Translations under genes and position numbers: made by a program
The notes under the pieces: model-generated
The model's database searches: none
Told to the model about the DNA's origin: nothing
What the model saw: only the letters and a program-made list of their open reading frames with translations
Shown: piece by piece, positions 16,084 to 41,303 of the stretch
Layout: every line of letters starts with the position of its first letter
Position numbering within the stretch: position 1 is the stretch's first letter
Origin: Negativicutes bacterium
GTDB taxonomy: Bacteria; Bacillota_C; Negativicutes; Sporomusales_B; JARLHX01
Length of the DNA stretch: 64,000 nucleotides
Direction: 5' to 3'
Assembly (NCBI GenBank): GCA_031292035.1
Contig: JARLHX010000221.1
Coordinates: 5,773-69,772, forward strand

Positions 16084-16449
16084 TCAGCCAGTCGGGCCGG
16101 CTTCAATGGCCTTTTTGTCAATCGCCTCTTTGGCGACAGGTGCCATTTGCTCCTCAGCCTTGGCGATGAGTTCCTTGACCATCGTCCCGCCGATTTTTCC
16201 GCCGGTTGCCCCGCCGATCTTACCTACTTCAGCAGTGGTCATATTTTCCCAGCCCACAGACTCAACTTTTTCCTTGAGTCCGAGTTCTTCGGCGGCTTCC
16301 CATTTTTTCGCGTCCAGGACGCTTTCATAATTTTCGGCGGTGATTTTCTGGTTGGTCTCTTTGCCCAGCGTTTGATTCGCCGCATCAATTTTGAGCTTAT
16401 CCAGACCCTTTCGCGCCGCGGGGACGAGGATTTCGTCTTTATCCGGCAT
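16084..16449 (-). CDS. Atypical alpha/beta-type small acid-soluble spore protein (SASP-like)
   Basis: SASPs coat spore DNA and are cleaved by the Gpr protease at germination. ATG 16449 (or the adjacent ATG 16452) follows AGGAGG, giving 121 residues, about twice the usual ~60-70. Residues ILVPAARKGLDKLKIDAA match the SASP N-terminal helix, and GGKIGGTMVKELIAKAEEQM matches the SASP C-terminal helix. Between them is an insertion with a second helix-like copy (VLDAKKWEAAEELGL) and TAEVGKIGGATGG. KWE-AAEELG resembles a Gpr cleavage site. A sigma-G-like promoter lies upstream. Confidence 0.75.
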   Translation of the reverse strand: MPDKDEILVPAARKGLDKLKIDAANQTLGKETNQKITAENYESVLDAKKWEAAEELGLKEKVESVGWENMTTAEVGKIGGATGGKIGGTMVKELIAKAEEQMAPVAKEAIDKKAIEAGPTG

Positions 16450-16476
16450 CATGCTACCTCCTATTGCGGTTTTTAT

Positions 16477-16506
16477 TAGCATGTCCTCGGTCCTGACGGT
16501 GTAAAC
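16477..16506 (-). promoter_or_regulatory. Candidate sigma-G-type promoter of the SASP-like gene
   Basis: On the - strand GTTTA (16502-16506) and CATGCTA (16477-16483) are 18 bp apart. They lie close to the forespore sigma-G pattern (GHATR, N18, CATWMTA), each box with one mismatch. The position about 30 bp upstream of the start and the SASP product support it. Confidence 0.4.
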
Positions 16507-16587
16507 AGTCATTTTTTTGCGACAGCGGTACCAAACGCAAGATGAAGCATATATATACTAGGCGATACTGCTTTGGGAGGGGAGAAC

Positions 16588-17262
16588 ATGAGGTTCTCCG
16601 TCAAGAAACGACGACAAGTTTCGGGGTTGACACTGCTGGTCGGTTTTCTTCTGGGGATCCTTTTGATCGGCTTTGGGATCGTCGAGGCCCATCTGAAACC
16701 GACAGTCCTGGCCATCGCTGAGGCCCGGGCGACCCTGATCGCCACCCAGGCCATCAACAATGTCATCAACGAGAAAGTCAGCCAGTCCATCGATCCCCAG
16801 TCACTAGTCAATATCAAGCTCGACAATCGCGGCCGGGTGGTATTCATCCAGCCCAATACGCTGGAGTTTAATAAACTGGCGGCCGACACCACCATGAAAG
16901 TGCAGGACGCCTTGCGGGCCATCAGCGAAGAGCGCATCCAAATCCCAATTGGTCAAGTGCTCGGCAGTCAACTGCTGGCCAGTCTCGGGCCAAAAATCGT
17001 CGTGACCATCATTCCGGTCGGGACCGTCCAGGTCAAAGTGGTGGACAAATTTGAGCAGGCCGGGATCAACCAGACTCGCCATATGATTTATCTTTATGCC
17101 ACCACTTCGATTCGCATTGTTGTGCCGTTGGTCAGCTCGACGGTGAGTGTCAATACCCAGGTTCCGATCGCCGAATATGTAGTTGTCGGCGAAGTGCCCA
17201 ACACCTATGTCCAGGTGCCTTTCCCGCTGCCAGGGGAACCCGGCGGGAGCGGACAGCCGTGA
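16588..17262 (+). CDS. yunB: Sporulation protein YunB
   Basis: YunB is a sporulation protein whose loss impairs spore formation in Bacillus. ATG 16588 behind GGGAGGGGAG gives 224 residues. It has an N-terminal TM (LTLLVGFLLGILLIGFGIV) and the family core AIAEARATLIATQAINNVINE, then LGPKIVVTIIPVGTVQV and the C-terminal PIAEYVVVGEVPNTYV. The protein is likely membrane-anchored with the bulk outside. It is divergent from the SASP-like gene and closed by a terminator at 17323. Confidence 0.9.
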   Translation: MRFSVKKRRQVSGLTLLVGFLLGILLIGFGIVEAHLKPTVLAIAEARATLIATQAINNVINEKVSQSIDPQSLVNIKLDNRGRVVFIQPNTLEFNKLAADTTMKVQDALRAISEERIQIPIGQVLGSQLLASLGPKIVVTIIPVGTVQVKVVDKFEQAGINQTRHMIYLYATTSIRIVVPLVSSTVSVNTQVPIAEYVVVGEVPNTYVQVPFPLPGEPGGSGQP

Positions 17263-17410: not shown

Positions 17411-17428
17411 ATGTGAAAAGTTTCACAT
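17411..17428 (+). promoter_or_regulatory. Rex- or Crp/Fnr-like palindromic operator
   Basis: ATGTGAAAAGTTTCACAT is a perfect 18-bp palindrome apart from the central spacer. It contains TGTGA-N6-TCACA (the Crp-family consensus) and also fits the Bacillus Rex pattern TTGTGAA-N4-TTCACAA with only the outermost base changed. It lies between the predicted start point and the ribosome-binding site, a repressor-like position, in front of a redox gene cluster. The regulator itself is not in the window. Confidence 0.6.
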
Positions 17429-17441
17429 ACGGAGGGTAATT

Positions 17442-17693
17442 GTGAATCAAATATCGATCTGCGTGGGTAGCGCCTGTCATCTGCGAGGAGCTGACGCTGT
17501 GCTTAGGGCTTTTGTCGCCCAGATAGAAAAACACAAGATAGAATGCCAAGTGGATATCGAAGGCAACTTCTGTCAGGGACGCTGTACCGAAGGGGTGGTG
17601 GTGAAAATCAACGACGAGATTATTACCCAGGTATCGCGTGAGAAGGTTGACACCATTTTTCGGACAAAGATATTGGAAGGAGGGCGGACATGA
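17442..17693 (+). CDS. Thioredoxin-like [2Fe-2S] ferredoxin (NuoE C-terminal type)
   Basis: An 83-residue electron carrier with the four cysteines of the thioredoxin-like [2Fe-2S] fold: C7, C12 (CVGSAC) and C44, C48 (CQGRC). GTG 17442 follows GGAGGGTAATT. It overlaps the next gene by 4 nt (ATGA). It probably passes electrons to or from the sensory hydrogenase, as related small subunits do in HydABC and NADH-linked complexes (inference). Confidence 0.88.
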   Translation: MNQISICVGSACHLRGADAVLRAFVAQIEKHKIECQVDIEGNFCQGRCTEGVVVKINDEIITQVSREKVDTIFRTKILEGGRT

Positions 17694-19381
17694 GTGCAAT
17701 AGTGACCCAAAAGGCTAACTGCCAGGACTGTCACCGCTGCCTGCGGTCCTGCCCGATAAAAGCCATCGGGATCGAAGACGGACAGGCTCGCCTGCTGGAA
17801 AATAAATGCGTGCAGTGCGGCCGCTGCGTGGTGGAATGCCCACAACAGGCCAAACAGGTTAGCAGCCATGTGGCAATGGTGAAGACTGCGCTGGCTGCCG
17901 GGCAAAAGGTAGTCCTCAGTCTGGCGCCGTCAGCGGTGGCGGCGTTCGGTGATATTGGCCTGGATAAGCTGCGGGACAAGCTGAAGGCACTGGGCGTTAG
18001 CGTCGTGGAAGAAACAGCGGTGGGGGCCGAGGTCGTCTCGCGGTACTACGCGGAAATGCTGGCGACGGCCACAGCACCTGTTATTTCAGCCTGTTGCCCG
18101 GTAATTGTCAGTATGATAAAAAAATATTACCCCGGACTGGTAGGCAATCTGGCGCCGGTTGTGTCGCCGATGCAGGCCCACGGCCGCCTGCTCAGACAGC
18201 GTCAGGGGCCGGACGCTATGGTGGTGTTCGCCGGACCCTGTATTGGTAAAATCGGGGAAAGGGATGAAGCAGGCAGCCAGGTGGACGCCGTCATCACCTT
18301 TGAAGACCTCAGGCAATGGCTGACCGCCCCCTCGGCCTCGTCAGGCGCTGCCTCTGCGGCATCCTTTCGCCAGGCTGCCAGCGAAGCCCGCCTCTACCCG
18401 GTCGCAGGCGGTATTTTGAAATCGTTTACAACCAGTGAATATATTTCCAGCGATATCATCGCCGTCGACGGCTTGGAAAAATGCATGGAGGTCTTCGACA
18501 GTCTGGTGCGCAGGGAGATCGCCCCGCGCTTCATCGAAGCCTTGGCCTGCAGCGGTGGCTGCATCAACGGTCCGGTCAGCGGCACTGAACAATGCTCTCC
18601 CGCCAAACGGCTGCGGATACTGGAATTCGCCGCTGCTAGTACGCCGCTCGGGCCGCAGTTTCTGCCAGACAGTCTATGCTTTGACCGTGTCCATGTTGCC
18701 GACCCTGTCCGCGATCTGGCGCCGTCAGAAGCCGAAATCAGGCAGGTGCTGGCCCGGACCGGCAAATTTACCAAACAGGATGAAAAGAACTGCGGCGCCT
18801 GCGGCTTTAATTCCTGCAGGGAAAAGGCGATAGCGGTCTGCCGGGGACTGACCACCACCGATACCTGTGTGCCCTATATGCGATCCAAAGCGGAGTCCTT
18901 TGCCAACGTCATTGTCGACAACTCCATGAACGCCATCATCGTAGTCAACGGCAAAATGGAGATTCAGGAATTTAATCCGGCGGCAGAGACCATGTTTGGC
19001 TGTCAGAAGGAAATCGTCAAAGGGCGCGAGCTCCATGACATTATGGACTGCACCGACATTATCGCCGCTGCCGGGTCGCGGAGCAAAACCAATCACCGCC
19101 GGGTCACTCTGGTGCAGGGCCCTGTCACCCATCAGATGATTGTACCGGTGGACGGCCAGGATCTCATTATCATTGTATTGACTGACATCAGCGCCCAGGA
19201 AAAGCATTCCCTCGAACTGGAGGAAATGAAGCAGCAGACAGTGGCGAAGGCCACCGAGATCATTAACAAGCAAATGCATGTAGCCCAGGAAATCGCCGGT
19301 CTCTTGGGGGAAACGACGGCTGAAACGAAAGCCGCTCTCATCGAGCTGGTCGGGTTGCTCAAGATAAAGGGGGAAGACTGA
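17690..19381 (+). CDS. [FeFe]-hydrogenase-like sensory protein with PAS domain (HydS/group C type)
   Basis: The layout matches putative H2-sensing group C hydrogenases. 563 residues: two [4Fe-4S] motifs (C11/14/17/21 and C40/43/46/50) and an H-cluster domain at about 70-320. A four-cysteine Fe-S motif (C368/371/376/384) and a PAS domain at about 400-500 follow, with a C-terminal helical region. The H-cluster ligands are all present: C136 in SACCP, C184 in GPCIGK, C287 and C291 in ACSGGC. C135, the proton-shuttle cysteine of catalytic enzymes, is also kept. It overlaps the next gene (the phosphatase) by 1 nt. Confidence 0.88.
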   Translation: MSAIVTQKANCQDCHRCLRSCPIKAIGIEDGQARLLENKCVQCGRCVVECPQQAKQVSSHVAMVKTALAAGQKVVLSLAPSAVAAFGDIGLDKLRDKLKALGVSVVEETAVGAEVVSRYYAEMLATATAPVISACCPVIVSMIKKYYPGLVGNLAPVVSPMQAHGRLLRQRQGPDAMVVFAGPCIGKIGERDEAGSQVDAVITFEDLRQWLTAPSASSGAASAASFRQAASEARLYPVAGGILKSFTTSEYISSDIIAVDGLEKCMEVFDSLVRREIAPRFIEALACSGGCINGPVSGTEQCSPAKRLRILEFAAASTPLGPQFLPDSLCFDRVHVADPVRDLAPSEAEIRQVLARTGKFTKQDEKNCGACGFNSCREKAIAVCRGLTTTDTCVPYMRSKAESFANVIVDNSMNAIIVVNGKMEIQEFNPAAETMFGCQKEIVKGRELHDIMDCTDIIAAAGSRSKTNHRRVTLVQGPVTHQMIVPVDGQDLIIIVLTDISAQEKHSLELEEMKQQTVAKATEIINKQMHVAQEIAGLLGETTAETKAALIELVGLLKIKGED

Positions 19382-20532
19382 TGATTCAGTTGCACCCGGA
19401 GGTGGCAGTGGCTCAGCTTTCTAAGTGCCGCGAGGAACTTTGCGGCGACAAGGTCGAGGTCACCCGCTCCGGCGAACTCACCACCGTCGTCATCTCCGAC
19501 GGCCTGGGGAGTGGCGTGAAGGCCAATATTCTGGCCACGCTGACCACCAAAATCGCCTCATCCCTGCTCAAACGCGGCATCCCGCTGGAAGAAGTGGTCA
19601 ACACGGTAGCGCAGACCCTGCCGGTTTGCCGAGAACGAAAAATTGCCTATTCCACCCTTCATATCATAAAATTCCGGCCTGATGGCCAAACCACCGTCGT
19701 CGAGTTCGACAGCCCGGCCACCTTTCTGGTGAGGGGCGGCCAGGTAGTGCCTTTTCCGACCAAGGAAAAGGAGATCGCCGGTAAAACCGTCATGGAAGGT
19801 CATTTGGCTTTGCAGGAAAATGACTGCATTGTCGCTGTCAGTGACGGAGTCATCCATTCAGGGATCGGCGGCCTTTTGAAACTGGGCTGGAATTGGCAGG
19901 GCATCTCAGCCGAGCTCACAGCCATGGATCCGGGAAAATTAAGTGCAGCCCAAATTGCCGCCGGTATTCTAAATTGCTGCAACGGCTATTATCTCGGCCA
20001 GCCGGGGGATGACTCCACCGTGGTGGCGGTCAAGCTCCGCCGGCCGCGGCGGCTGACCCTCCTGACCGGACCTCCCGCTGATACGGCCCAGGATGAGGCA
20101 GTGGTGCGGAGATTTCTGTCGGAACCAGGCAAGAAAGTGGTTTCCGGCGGGACTACCGCCAATGTTGTCGGCCGGGTGACTGGTAAAAAGGTCAAAGTTG
20201 ATTTATCGTATTACGACCCCTTGGTACCGCCTACCGCCAGGATTGACGGCATCGACCTCGTTACCGAGGGGGTGCTGACCCTGGCAGCAGCAAGTGAACG
20301 GTTTTCCGATCCGACGAGGCTTGACAACCTGTCCCATCAGGATGGTGCCACACTGATGGTACGACTGCTGCTGGAGGCTGATAAGATCTGTATTTACGCC
20401 GGCACCGCAGTCAATCCGGCCCACCAAAACCCCAATTTCCCGACTCATATCAACATCAAAAAACAGGTGCTCGACAACCTGCAGGCCAAGCTGGAAGCCG
20501 CCGGCAAGGATGTGACGGTGGAATGGATATGA
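19381..20532 (+). CDS. SpoIIE-type PP2C protein phosphatase of the hydrogenase module
   Basis: Serine/threonine phosphatase of the SpoIIE/RsbU superfamily, 383 residues. The N-terminal ~215 residues hold the PPM metal-binding motifs ISDGLGSG, VSDGVIHSG and QPGDDSTVVAV. A further ~165-residue C-terminal region (from about RRLTLLTGP, residue 222) is unrecognised and not part of the minimal catalytic fold. It overlaps the sensory hydrogenase gene by 1 nt, so the pair is likely a signalling unit: redox/H2 state to dephosphorylation of an unknown protein (inference). Confidence 0.87.
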   Translation: MIQLHPEVAVAQLSKCREELCGDKVEVTRSGELTTVVISDGLGSGVKANILATLTTKIASSLLKRGIPLEEVVNTVAQTLPVCRERKIAYSTLHIIKFRPDGQTTVVEFDSPATFLVRGGQVVPFPTKEKEIAGKTVMEGHLALQENDCIVAVSDGVIHSGIGGLLKLGWNWQGISAELTAMDPGKLSAAQIAAGILNCCNGYYLGQPGDDSTVVAVKLRRPRRLTLLTGPPADTAQDEAVVRRFLSEPGKKVVSGGTTANVVGRVTGKKVKVDLSYYDPLVPPTARIDGIDLVTEGVLTLAAASERFSDPTRLDNLSHQDGATLMVRLLLEADKICIYAGTAVNPAHQNPNFPTHINIKKQVLDNLQAKLEAAGKDVTVEWI

Positions 20533-20608
20533 AGGACTCAACGGCGTTTTGCTGAAAGGCATGAAACCCGAGCATTTGTTGGAACTGATCGACGATAATT
20601 TGCAGTAA
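20516..20608 (+). pseudogene. Possible remnant open frame between phosphatase and hydrogenase
   Basis: A frame out of phase with the phosphatase encodes about 30 residues ending GVLLKGMKPEHLLELIDDNL. That resembles the C-terminal end of NuoE/NuoF-type [2Fe-2S] ferredoxin domains (…VTPEDVPEIL…). No upstream start or ribosome-binding site exists. Either a decayed ferredoxin gene or a chance frame; low confidence. Confidence 0.25.
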
Positions 20609-20624
20609 TATTTGGAGGAAGATC

Positions 20625-22091
20625 ATGATACAAGTAAGTGAAGTAACGAAAATACGCCGGAAGGTACTGGCTGAGATCTGCGGCCTGGTTTTCCAGGGCA
20701 AGCTGGTGGAAAAAATCAAAGAACTGCCGGGAGAAGTGGTGACCGAAGACGGGCCCCGTTACCGCTGCTGCGTCCACAAGGAACGGGCGGTGCTCAAAGA
20801 CCGGATCAATATGGCCCTGAGCCAGCCCATCGGTACAGATCTGACCGTCGCCGCCGAACGCGCCCTGGCCGGTGAAACAGCAACATTACCGGTGGTGACC
20901 ATCTTGCCTGAGGCCTGTGATCGCTGCCCGATCGATAAATTCCTGGTCACCGACGCCTGCCGCAACTGCCTGGCCCATAACTGCATCACTAGCTGCCCCA
21001 AGAAAGCCATTATGGTGGTCCAGAACAGGGCCTATATCGATAAAGCCAGATGCGTCGAATGCGGCCTGTGCAAGCGTTCCTGCTCCTATGGCGCCATCAT
21101 CGAAATCAGCCGCCCCTGCGAACGGGCCTGTGAACTGCAGGCCGTCACCGCCGGCGTCGACCGGCGTGCAGTCATCGACTACAATAAATGCGTGGCCTGC
21201 GGCGCCTGCAAAGTGGCCTGCCCCTTTGGCGCCATCAGCGATGCGGCCCAGATCGTTCAATTGATCCGGGGACTTCAGGGTCCGCGGCCGGTATACGCCC
21301 TTTTGGCGCCGGCCTTTGTCGGCCAGTTCGGCGCGAATGTGAAACCGCCGCAAGTCATCGCGGCACTCAGCCAACTGGGCTTTGCCGATGTGGTTGAGGC
21401 GGCCTGCGGCGCCGATATCGTGGCTGCCGCTGAAACGGCGGAATTCCACGAGGCAATGGAGGAAGGGCGGTCCTTTTTTACCACCTCCTGTTGCCCGGCC
21501 TTTGTCGGCATGATCGAAAAACATATGCCTGAACTTGTGCCCCATGTATCCACCACCGTATCGCCGATGATCGCCGCCGCTAAGATCATCAAGGCAGCCG
21601 ACCCCGAGGCGCTGGTGGCCTTCGTCGGCCCTTGCGTCGCCAAAAAAGGCGAAGGGCGGCAGCATCCGGACCTCATCGACTTTGTTCTGACCTTTGAAGA
21701 AATGGCAGCCGTTCTTGTCGGCGCCGGCATCAACGCAGCGGCTATGGAGGCCACCTCCTTTATGAGCAAAGCGTCCAGCGACGGAGCTACCTTCGCCCGG
21801 GCCGGCGGGGTCACCCAAGCGGTGGCTAACGCCCTGGCGCGGCTGGCGCCGGAGGTCGAGTTTAAACCCCAGCCTTGCGACGGTCTGGAAAGCTGCCGGG
21901 AAACACTGCGGAAACTGACGCAAAACAAGCTGGACGCCAACTTTATCGAAGGGATGGCCTGCCCGGGCGGCTGTGTGGGCGGACCAGGCACTCTGACCGA
22001 CCCGCGGGTGTCGACACGGCTTGTGGAACAATTTGCAGCCGCGGCAAAAGCCAAGGACGCTGGCGAAAAGACTGGTACTCAGGCGGGATGA
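20625..22091 (+). CDS. Group-B-like monomeric [FeFe] hydrogenase
   Basis: 488 residues with three [4Fe-4S] motifs (C112/115/120/124, C143/146/149/153, C189/192/195/199) and an H-cluster domain from about 220. The ligands are C290 in TTSCCPAF, C337 in GPCVAKKGE, and C446/C450 in ACPGGC; C289 is also present. TSCCPAF rather than TSCCPGW points to the little-characterised group B. Probably a cytoplasmic ferredoxin-linked hydrogenase. GGAGGAAGATC precedes ATG 20625. It may be the target of the upstream sensor-phosphatase pair. Confidence 0.9.
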   Translation: MIQVSEVTKIRRKVLAEICGLVFQGKLVEKIKELPGEVVTEDGPRYRCCVHKERAVLKDRINMALSQPIGTDLTVAAERALAGETATLPVVTILPEACDRCPIDKFLVTDACRNCLAHNCITSCPKKAIMVVQNRAYIDKARCVECGLCKRSCSYGAIIEISRPCERACELQAVTAGVDRRAVIDYNKCVACGACKVACPFGAISDAAQIVQLIRGLQGPRPVYALLAPAFVGQFGANVKPPQVIAALSQLGFADVVEAACGADIVAAAETAEFHEAMEEGRSFFTTSCCPAFVGMIEKHMPELVPHVSTTVSPMIAAAKIIKAADPEALVAFVGPCVAKKGEGRQHPDLIDFVLTFEEMAAVLVGAGINAAAMEATSFMSKASSDGATFARAGGVTQAVANALARLAPEVEFKPQPCDGLESCRETLRKLTQNKLDANFIEGMACPGGCVGGPGTLTDPRVSTRLVEQFAAAAKAKDAGEKTGTQAG

Positions 22092-39967: not shown

Positions 39968-40567
39968 ATGACACACGAGGCCGCACGAGCGGAAAAGCAG
40001 CGGCTGCGCCAAGAAATATTGGAAAAGCGGCGTAGCCTCACTCCAGAGCAGGTGGCGGACGGCAGCAGTCGAATCGCCGCTGATTTTTGCGCCTGGCCGG
40101 TGTATCTGGCTGCAAATACCATCATGATTTACCTGGCCATGGCGGACGAGCCCCAGACAGATGGTCTGATCGTTGACGCCCTGGCGTGGGGAAAACAGGT
40201 GTGTGTACCCGTTCTGACAGAGAAATACGGTGTGATGACCGCCGCCGAAATCACCGGCCTTGAGGGTTTGGTGACCGGCCGGCTGGGCCTTAAAATGCCT
40301 GACCCGGCCTCAGCCAGACCAGTTTGCCCTGCCACCATCGATCTGGTGGTGGTGCCGGGTGTGGCTTTTGATTCAAGCGGCAACCGACTTGGTATGGGCG
40401 CCGGCTACTACGACCGTTTTCTGGCTGAGGCCAGCAACGGCGTGCGGCTCGGGCTGGCCTGGTCGTGGCAGCTCGCCGCAAGGGTTCCCAGTGAAGATTT
40501 CGATATCAAGATGCACTATCTGTTGACGGAAGGTGGCTTTTTATCCTGCGGCCGGGGCGGAGGATGA
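39968..40567 (+). CDS. 5-formyltetrahydrofolate cyclo-ligase
   Basis: Converts 5-formyl-THF to 5,10-methenyl-THF with ATP. 199 residues, ATG two nt after the yajC stop. Family motifs: RLRQEILEKRRSLTPEQ, VVPGVAFDSSGNRLGMGAGYYDRFL and the ATP-binding Lys/Arg positions near the N-terminus. Confidence 0.93.
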   Translation: MTHEAARAEKQRLRQEILEKRRSLTPEQVADGSSRIAADFCAWPVYLAANTIMIYLAMADEPQTDGLIVDALAWGKQVCVPVLTEKYGVMTAAEITGLEGLVTGRLGLKMPDPASARPVCPATIDLVVVPGVAFDSSGNRLGMGAGYYDRFLAEASNGVRLGLAWSWQLAARVPSEDFDIKMHYLLTEGGFLSCGRGGG

Positions 40568-40598
40568 TCGAGCGCCGTGCAGGCTCAGGGAATGGGTT

Positions 40599-41303
40599 AT
40601 GGAGATTAAAGTTGGTATCGCTAAAATCAATAAATACGCGGTGGCCGATTGTGGAGACAGTGTAGAAGTGGCAGAACGACCACGTGGTGGTATTTCTGCC
40701 ATTTTAGCTGATGGTCAGGGCAGCGGAAAATCGGCCAAGATTACCAGTGGCCTTGTTGTGGCGCGGGCGGCGGCCCTTATCACCGAAGGGGCGCGCGACG
40801 GCGCGGTGGCCAGGGCAGTCCACGACTATCTTTACACCATCAAGGACGGCAAAGTTTCGTCCACCCTCGCCATTCTCAGCGCCGATCTGGAGACTGAGAC
40901 AGTGGTTTTTTCCCGCAATTCCAACTGCCCGGTACTGGTTAAAGGATTATATGGTATTGACAGTTATGACGACGAAGTCAATCCGATCGGCGTTCATAAA
41001 CATATGAAGCCGTTGATGAATCAAATCCCCCTCGAAGTGGGCACAATTGTGGTAACATACTCCGACGGCATTCAAGCAGCCGGACGGAAGAGGGGCAATC
41101 CCATGCAGCTGGACAAGATCTTCCGCTATATAACCGAAAATGAGCCGGAGGACGTGGATTTTATCGCCCAAAGCATTCTTGAATATGCTCTGGAACTCGA
41201 CGAATATCGTGCCGGAGACGATATGACGGTGGTGGCTTTGGGGATTTCGGGGCGGGAGTCGGCCTACAAGATTCAGCGGATTAGCGTTTCTTTTCCGTAT
41301 TAA
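40599..41303 (+). CDS. SpoIIE-type PP2C phosphatase (small form)
   Basis: 234 residues from ATG 40599. Carries the metal-binding motifs ILADGQGSGKSAKI, YSDGIQAAGRK and AGDDMTVVALGI, so a stand-alone phosphatase domain of the SpoIIE/RsbU class. No TM and no regulatory domain. The ribosome-binding site is weak. It heads a tight three-gene set with the P-loop and HD genes; the target is unknown. Confidence 0.82.
   Translation: MEIKVGIAKINKYAVADCGDSVEVAERPRGGISAILADGQGSGKSAKITSGLVVARAAALITEGARDGAVARAVHDYLYTIKDGKVSSTLAILSADLETETVVFSRNSNCPVLVKGLYGIDSYDDEVNPIGVHKHMKPLMNQIPLEVGTIVVTYSDGIQAAGRKRGNPMQLDKIFRYITENEPEDVDFIAQSILEYALELDEYRAGDDMTVVALGISGRESAYKIQRISVSFPY

Follow-up and report, generated by a model that had tools for sequence, protein, structure and literature searches.

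The locus described here raises the question of whether an [FeFe] hydrogenase-like protein can act as a sensor that instructs a neighbouring protein phosphatase. It lies in a 64,000-nucleotide stretch of DNA from a Negativicutes bacterium (assembly GCA_031292035.1, contig JARLHX010000221.1, positions 5,773–69,772), hereafter the window, in whose numbering all coordinates are given, and consists of four genes on the + strand between positions 17442 and 22091, here called hfsA, hfsB, hfsC and hfsD. An initial annotation had read them as a compact redox-sensing module in which a [2Fe–2S] protein, a PAS-linked sensory hydrogenase, a PP2C phosphatase and a group B-like hydrogenase connect H2 or redox state to a dephosphorylation event. 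This observation is confirmed and its interpretation is partly supported. The locus is almost certainly an operon of the hfsABCD or C3 type, an arrangement that is not new, having been described as hfsABCD (PMC5707799, PMC11837493) and as group C3 of HydDB (PMC5037454); it is an ordinary, widespread and published system that is common among the relatives sampled. The fuller statement, that in such an operon an HfsB sensing H2 or redox state controls dephosphorylation by HfsC, has in our estimate slightly better than an even chance of being correct, and its link from H2 to dephosphorylation is one that we infer, as the initial annotation did.

Gene content and placement of the two H-cluster proteins

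The gene content was confirmed, the first start codon lying 31 nucleotides downstream of position 17411, where the module had been taken to begin. The four genes read in one direction and the first three overlap, as had been noted, hfsA and hfsB by four nucleotides and hfsB and hfsC by one, and all four assigned identities are borne out by Pfam matches above the cut-offs. HfsA (17442–17693; 83 residues, with a GTG start codon behind GGAGGG) is a thioredoxin-like [2Fe–2S] ferredoxin (PF01257, 39.3 bits, cut-off 24.8), and its CX4C...CX3C motif (Cys7, Cys12, Cys44 and Cys48) is present in all 32 HfsA rows checked. HfsB (17690–19381; 563 residues), a putative sensory [FeFe] hydrogenase, matches PF02906, Fer4, the iron–sulfur (FeS) entry PF04060 and PAS (PF13188 and PF00989), while HfsC (19381–20532; 383 residues) is a SpoIIE/PP2C-type phosphatase with an extra domain (PF07228, 59.2 bits, cut-off 25) and HfsD (20625–22091; 488 residues) matches PF02906 and Fer4.

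The group B-like character of HfsD is upheld by its score of 572.2 bits against the model TIGR04105 (FeFe_hydrog_B1; cut-off 450), below which HfsB, at 192.7 bits, falls. Membership of group A (TIGR02512) was rejected for either protein, the scores of HfsB and HfsD being 84.3 and 169.4 bits, respectively, against 405.95. A first tree of H-cluster domains comprised 75 rows, namely 38 paralogues from nine genomes together with the syntenic HfsB and HfsD proteins. In this tree group A formed a 26-row clade (support 100/100), HfsD belonged to a separate 23-row clade (99/96) and HfsB grouped with other HfsB proteins outside both. Placement of both domains among ordinary group A enzymes would have spoken against the annotation; neither was found there. 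One paralogue (P_L009_G001), on a branch of 4.82, was placed among the HfsB rows, a position that is not trusted; it and two further long-branch rows (L090_synB and L049_synB) were dropped from a second tree of 64 rows, for which 11 of the 26 group A rows were kept. Groups A and B together there formed a 34-row clade (100/99) that excluded HfsB, four sigma54-linked rows and one MCP-linked row, the last (L146) on a branch of over 4 and therefore in a position that is not trusted either. Group labels in both trees come from curated models and architecture rather than from HydDB references.

HfsB combines ferredoxin-type [4Fe–4S] motifs with an H-cluster domain (residues 72–295; 17903–18574), a C-terminal Cx2Cx4Cx16C cluster motif (residues 368–393; 18791–18868) and a PAS domain (matched residues 407–456; 18908–19057). 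Its cysteines at positions 184, 287, 291, 368, 371, 376 and 393 are Cys in all 37 rows of the HfsB alignment, 13 of which lack the N-terminus, and Cys136 is conserved in the 36 rows that have a letter at that column. The H-cluster cysteines are thus intact in HfsB, as annotated, and also in HfsD, in which the motifs TSCCP, GPC and ACPGGC were recognized by eye and without an alignment. H-cluster ligands, the C-terminal FeS motif, PAS and an adjoining Ser/Thr phosphatase gene are all features of group C3; by this architecture and neighbouring gene, rather than by clustering with references, HfsB has the build of the class that HydDB lists as 'phosphatase-linked (putative)' (PMC5037454).

Pairing of HfsB with HfsC among relatives

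A survey of 200 genomes from the class to which the closest relative belongs turned up near-full-length HfsC at 40 places, spread over 37 genomes, two partial matches (G140 and G116) standing outside this count; the closest locus found (L001) belongs to a Bacillota metagenome-assembled genome, and the named protein relatives of HfsC include those of Sporomusaceae and Negativicutes. HfsB lies directly upstream of HfsC at all 40 loci, while HfsA is present at 35, HfsD follows downstream at 28 and all four genes occur together at 25. In each of two of the loci (L050 and L053), HfsA and a portion of HfsB are obscured by 7,500 masked bases, and two others (L055 and L066) are also partly masked. A wider sample of 398 genomes of the phylum was searched with the FeS–PAS–C-terminal segment portion of HfsB and with HfsC, yielding, among the matches listed, 142 strong HfsB places (119 genomes) and 147 HfsC places (121 genomes). 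HfsC adjoins HfsB at 140 of the former and HfsB adjoins HfsC at 140 of the latter, again among the matches listed. Of the two HfsB places without an adjacent HfsC, one is at a contig end (G442) and the other is a tandem HfsB (G548), and the seven HfsC exceptions comprise the second pieces of split HfsC genes (G443, G466 and G530), three partial matches (G442, G575 and G580) and G205, in whose genome no HfsB match was found and whose HfsC, as judged by eye, is without the conserved stretch after DGLG. A tandem pair of HfsB genes upstream of a single HfsC was seen at L141 (3288–8252).

The phosphatase therefore accompanies the PAS hydrogenase as the initial annotation would have it; HfsB and HfsC are almost inseparable and HfsD is optional. 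The recurrence of the same neighbours in relatives indicates that the operon is beyond chance. As for the idea of a conserved four-gene module, the near-constant HfsB–HfsC pair stands but one fixed module does not, since the group B gene was not found downstream at 12 of the 40 class loci while the pair stays. Directly 3′ of hfsC, yebC occupies its place at five class loci (L041, L042, L063, L071 and L075), an indication that hfsABC persists without hfsD, and at L061 (9964–10155) a short HfsD-like remnant of 33 residues, 55% identical, lies between HfsC and yebC and points to decay of HfsD. At 29 loci from the phylum, whose short flanks were inspected by eye, hfsC is followed by NuoE/NuoF-like genes (12), TetR-type genes (five), rex-like genes (four), a ferredoxin gene and HfsD (three) or other genes or none (five). 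The rex-like open reading frame of L080 (762–1472) matches PF06971 and PF02629; such a rex-type redox repressor gene directly 3′ of HfsC, recognized by eye also in L081, L082 and L084, suggests that the H2 sensor and NADH sensing are connected.

A possible route from HfsB to HfsC

Residues 526–550 of HfsB (19265–19339) form its most conserved 25-residue block (0.86 in the 37-row alignment) and, assumed from their sequence to be helical, are a candidate output element facing HfsC, which they may contact. The motif of this segment occurs in all 37 HfsB rows, all of them phosphatase-linked sensors, and, among the 38 [FeFe] paralogues, in the single HfsB but in no other; it was not found in any of the sensory hydrogenases with other outputs that were checked, four sigma54-linked and one MCP-linked. 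The former are proteins of 855–889 residues fused to a sigma54 activator (L142:1804–4428, L144:1714–4278, L143:1502–4168 and L145:1276–3903). A Pfam run on those of L142 and L144 revealed an H-cluster domain, Cx2Cx4Cx16C and PAS joined to a sigma54 AAA+ activator and a helix–turn–helix, and those of L143 and L145 were assigned to the same kind by motif, tail and tree. Judging by their domains, they would be sensory hydrogenases wired directly to transcription, an output outside HydDB groups C1–C3, and a literature search for sigma54-fused sensory [FeFe] hydrogenases returned nothing. In the MCP-linked protein (L146:1798–3711), which is HydDB C2-like, an [FeFe] H-cluster domain and FeS are fused to an MCP signalling domain.

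HfsC displays the fold and the conserved aspartates of PP2C/SpoIIE phosphatases, its structure being modelled with a mean predicted local distance difference test (pLDDT) score of 89.3. Asp40, Asp155, Asp210 and Asp211 of the phosphatase domain (residues 1–222; 19381–20046) are conserved in all 50 rows of the HfsC alignment, which implies that catalysis is under selection. The C-terminal domain (residues 223–383; 20047–20529) of the window protein gave no match in Pfam. Modelled at a mean pLDDT of 90.7 and rich in invariant residues, it resembles a Rossmann fold with borderline fold matches, a molybdopterin-oxidoreductase-type domain having been compared. This domain and the C-terminal segment of HfsB may both be new, as no description of either was found in the accessible parts of the literature on hfs operons. 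Identity of HfsC with the sporulation protein SpoIIE (TIGR02865) was rejected, the score of 48.6 bits against a cut-off of 490.8 arising from the phosphatase part only. A second, standalone SpoIIE/PP2C phosphatase is encoded at 40533–41303 of the window (PF07228, 71.6 bits), and several relatives contain similar matches approximately 11–13 kb from HfsC; beside the operon, at 16084–17262, are the spore genes SASP (PF00269, − strand) and YunB (PF09560, + strand).

We propose that HfsA would exchange electrons with HfsB, whose H-cluster would sense H2 or the redox state of ferredoxin. The resulting change would travel through the FeS–PAS part and reach the conserved C-terminal segment, whose direct contact with HfsC would switch the phosphatase. 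HfsC would then dephosphorylate a Ser/Thr phosphoprotein and so tune fermentative electron disposal, including that by the co-encoded HfsD, which is predicted to evolve H2 from reduced ferredoxin. This chain, which we hold to be somewhat more probable than improbable, is favoured by the curated models, the placement outside group A, the adjacency of HfsB and HfsC at 40 of 40 class and 140 of 142 phylum places, the phosphatase fold and its aspartates, the restriction of the C-terminal segment to the phosphatase-linked kind among those checked and the existence elsewhere of sensory hydrogenases that share this build and have sigma54 or MCP outputs fused to them.

It is also favoured by genetics. 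In Thermoanaerobacterium saccharolyticum, deletion of hfsA or hfsB raises ethanol approximately 1.8-fold together with adhE expression, and no such rise follows deletion of hfsC, of hfsD or of all four genes (PMC5707799). Taken together with re-expression experiments (PMC11837493), these phenotypes may simply be read as HfsA and HfsB restraining HfsC, which in turn sets HfsD and fermentation; in Ruminococcus albus, the sensor cluster responds to co-culture, which was read as a response to H2 (PMC6776011). Several points weigh against the proposed chain. The target of HfsC, its kinase or a STAS partner are neither known nor seen, and re-expression of hfsD alone in a full hfs deletion produces the ethanol phenotype, so that HfsC is dispensable in that setting (PMC11837493). 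H2 does not reduce the C-terminal cluster of TamHydS, a relative from group D (PMC13104023), which counts against this cluster serving as a simple redox relay. Moreover, Cys135 of HfsB, present in 30 of the 36 rows with a letter at that position, aligns with the proton-transfer residue Cys299 of CpI, whose equivalent is retained in only 17% of sensory enzymes (PMC10055695), and HfsB may for this reason be a better catalyst than TmHydS or a typical sensor. More generally, signalling by [FeFe] 'sensory' hydrogenases is treated as putative (PMC8924675, PMC5037454), and the exact mechanism by which hfsB/C mutations cause high ethanol yields is said to be not known (PMC13277313).

The retained Cys135 also suits another explanation, in which HfsA, HfsB and HfsC, with or without HfsD, form a catalytic hydrogenase complex where HfsC plays a structural or internal role and sends out no phospho-signal. 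HfsABC has indeed been raised as a possible functional hydrogenase (PMC13277313), and the lowered hydrogenase activity upon hfsABCD deletion (PMC5707799) is as such a complex would predict; however, the rise in activity when hfsB by itself is deleted (PMC5707799), the selection acting on the catalytic aspartates of HfsC and the 12 class loci without a downstream HfsD make it unlikely. The variable presence of HfsD (28 of 40 loci), the yebC genes directly after hfsC and the other genes often found 3′ of hfsC in the phylum would rather fit unlinked functions on one transcript, with HfsABC as a sensor–phosphatase acting on distant targets and HfsD as an ordinary H2-evolving enzyme outside its control. 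This, too, we consider improbable, because the T. saccharolyticum genetics tie all four genes to one phenotype (PMC5707799, PMC11837493).

If control of HfsC by HfsB is retained, a bolder and rather doubtful extension is that the C-terminal segment of HfsB is a phosphatase-specific switch that co-evolved with HfsC, and that HfsC has a second ligand, such as a nicotinamide or adenine nucleotide, bound by its Rossmann-like domain. In that case HfsC would be a two-input redox phosphatase, integrating H2 and nucleotide signals before dephosphorylating its target. The HfsB–HfsC pairing, the C-terminal segment and the extra domain offer concrete residues that are testable in Thermoanaerobacterium.

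Comparison with known systems

The hfsABCD operon of T. saccharolyticum is reportedly the subject of work by Shaw in 2009, and the hydS cluster of R. albus of work by Zheng in 2014.

Compared by description, the T. saccharolyticum operon has the same four-gene order on one strand, with a ferredoxin-like hfsA, a PAS hydrogenase, a serine phosphatase and a ferredoxin-linked hydrogenase (PMC11837493), and TsHfsB and TsHfsD have likewise been assigned as a putative sensor and a group B enzyme (PMC8924675). Its HfsA is said to align well with no known protein (PMC11837493), whereas that of the window belongs to PF01257. From HydDB group C3, an H-cluster protein with a neighbouring Ser/Thr phosphatase gene, no difference was seen as far as its description extends (PMC5037454). 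The R. albus cluster shares the PAS sensory hydrogenase, the putative phosphatase and a ferredoxin-only hydrogenase, although the last was called group A1, in contrast to the group B HfsD, and that cluster also has an alcohol/aldehyde dehydrogenase, for which no counterpart adjoins the present operon (PMC6776011). TmHydS from Thermotoga maritima shares with HfsB an H-cluster domain, PAS and a Gly at the position of CpI Met353, while the CpI Cys299 and Met497 positions are Cys and Leu in HfsB (by alignment and by eye) but Ala and Ser in TmHydS (PMC10055695).

Unlike plain hfsABCD, the operon of the window also carries a fossil. The 92 bases between hfsC and hfsD encode the last 24 residues and the stop codon of a second [2Fe–2S] ferredoxin, A′ (20534–20608), with a local score of 75 to the L069 sequence against a best of 35 in 1050 shuffles. 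This tail indicates that the second ferredoxin gene was lost in the present lineage, a detail that may be new; in 19 of the 40 class relatives the gene is whole and stands between hfsC and hfsD.

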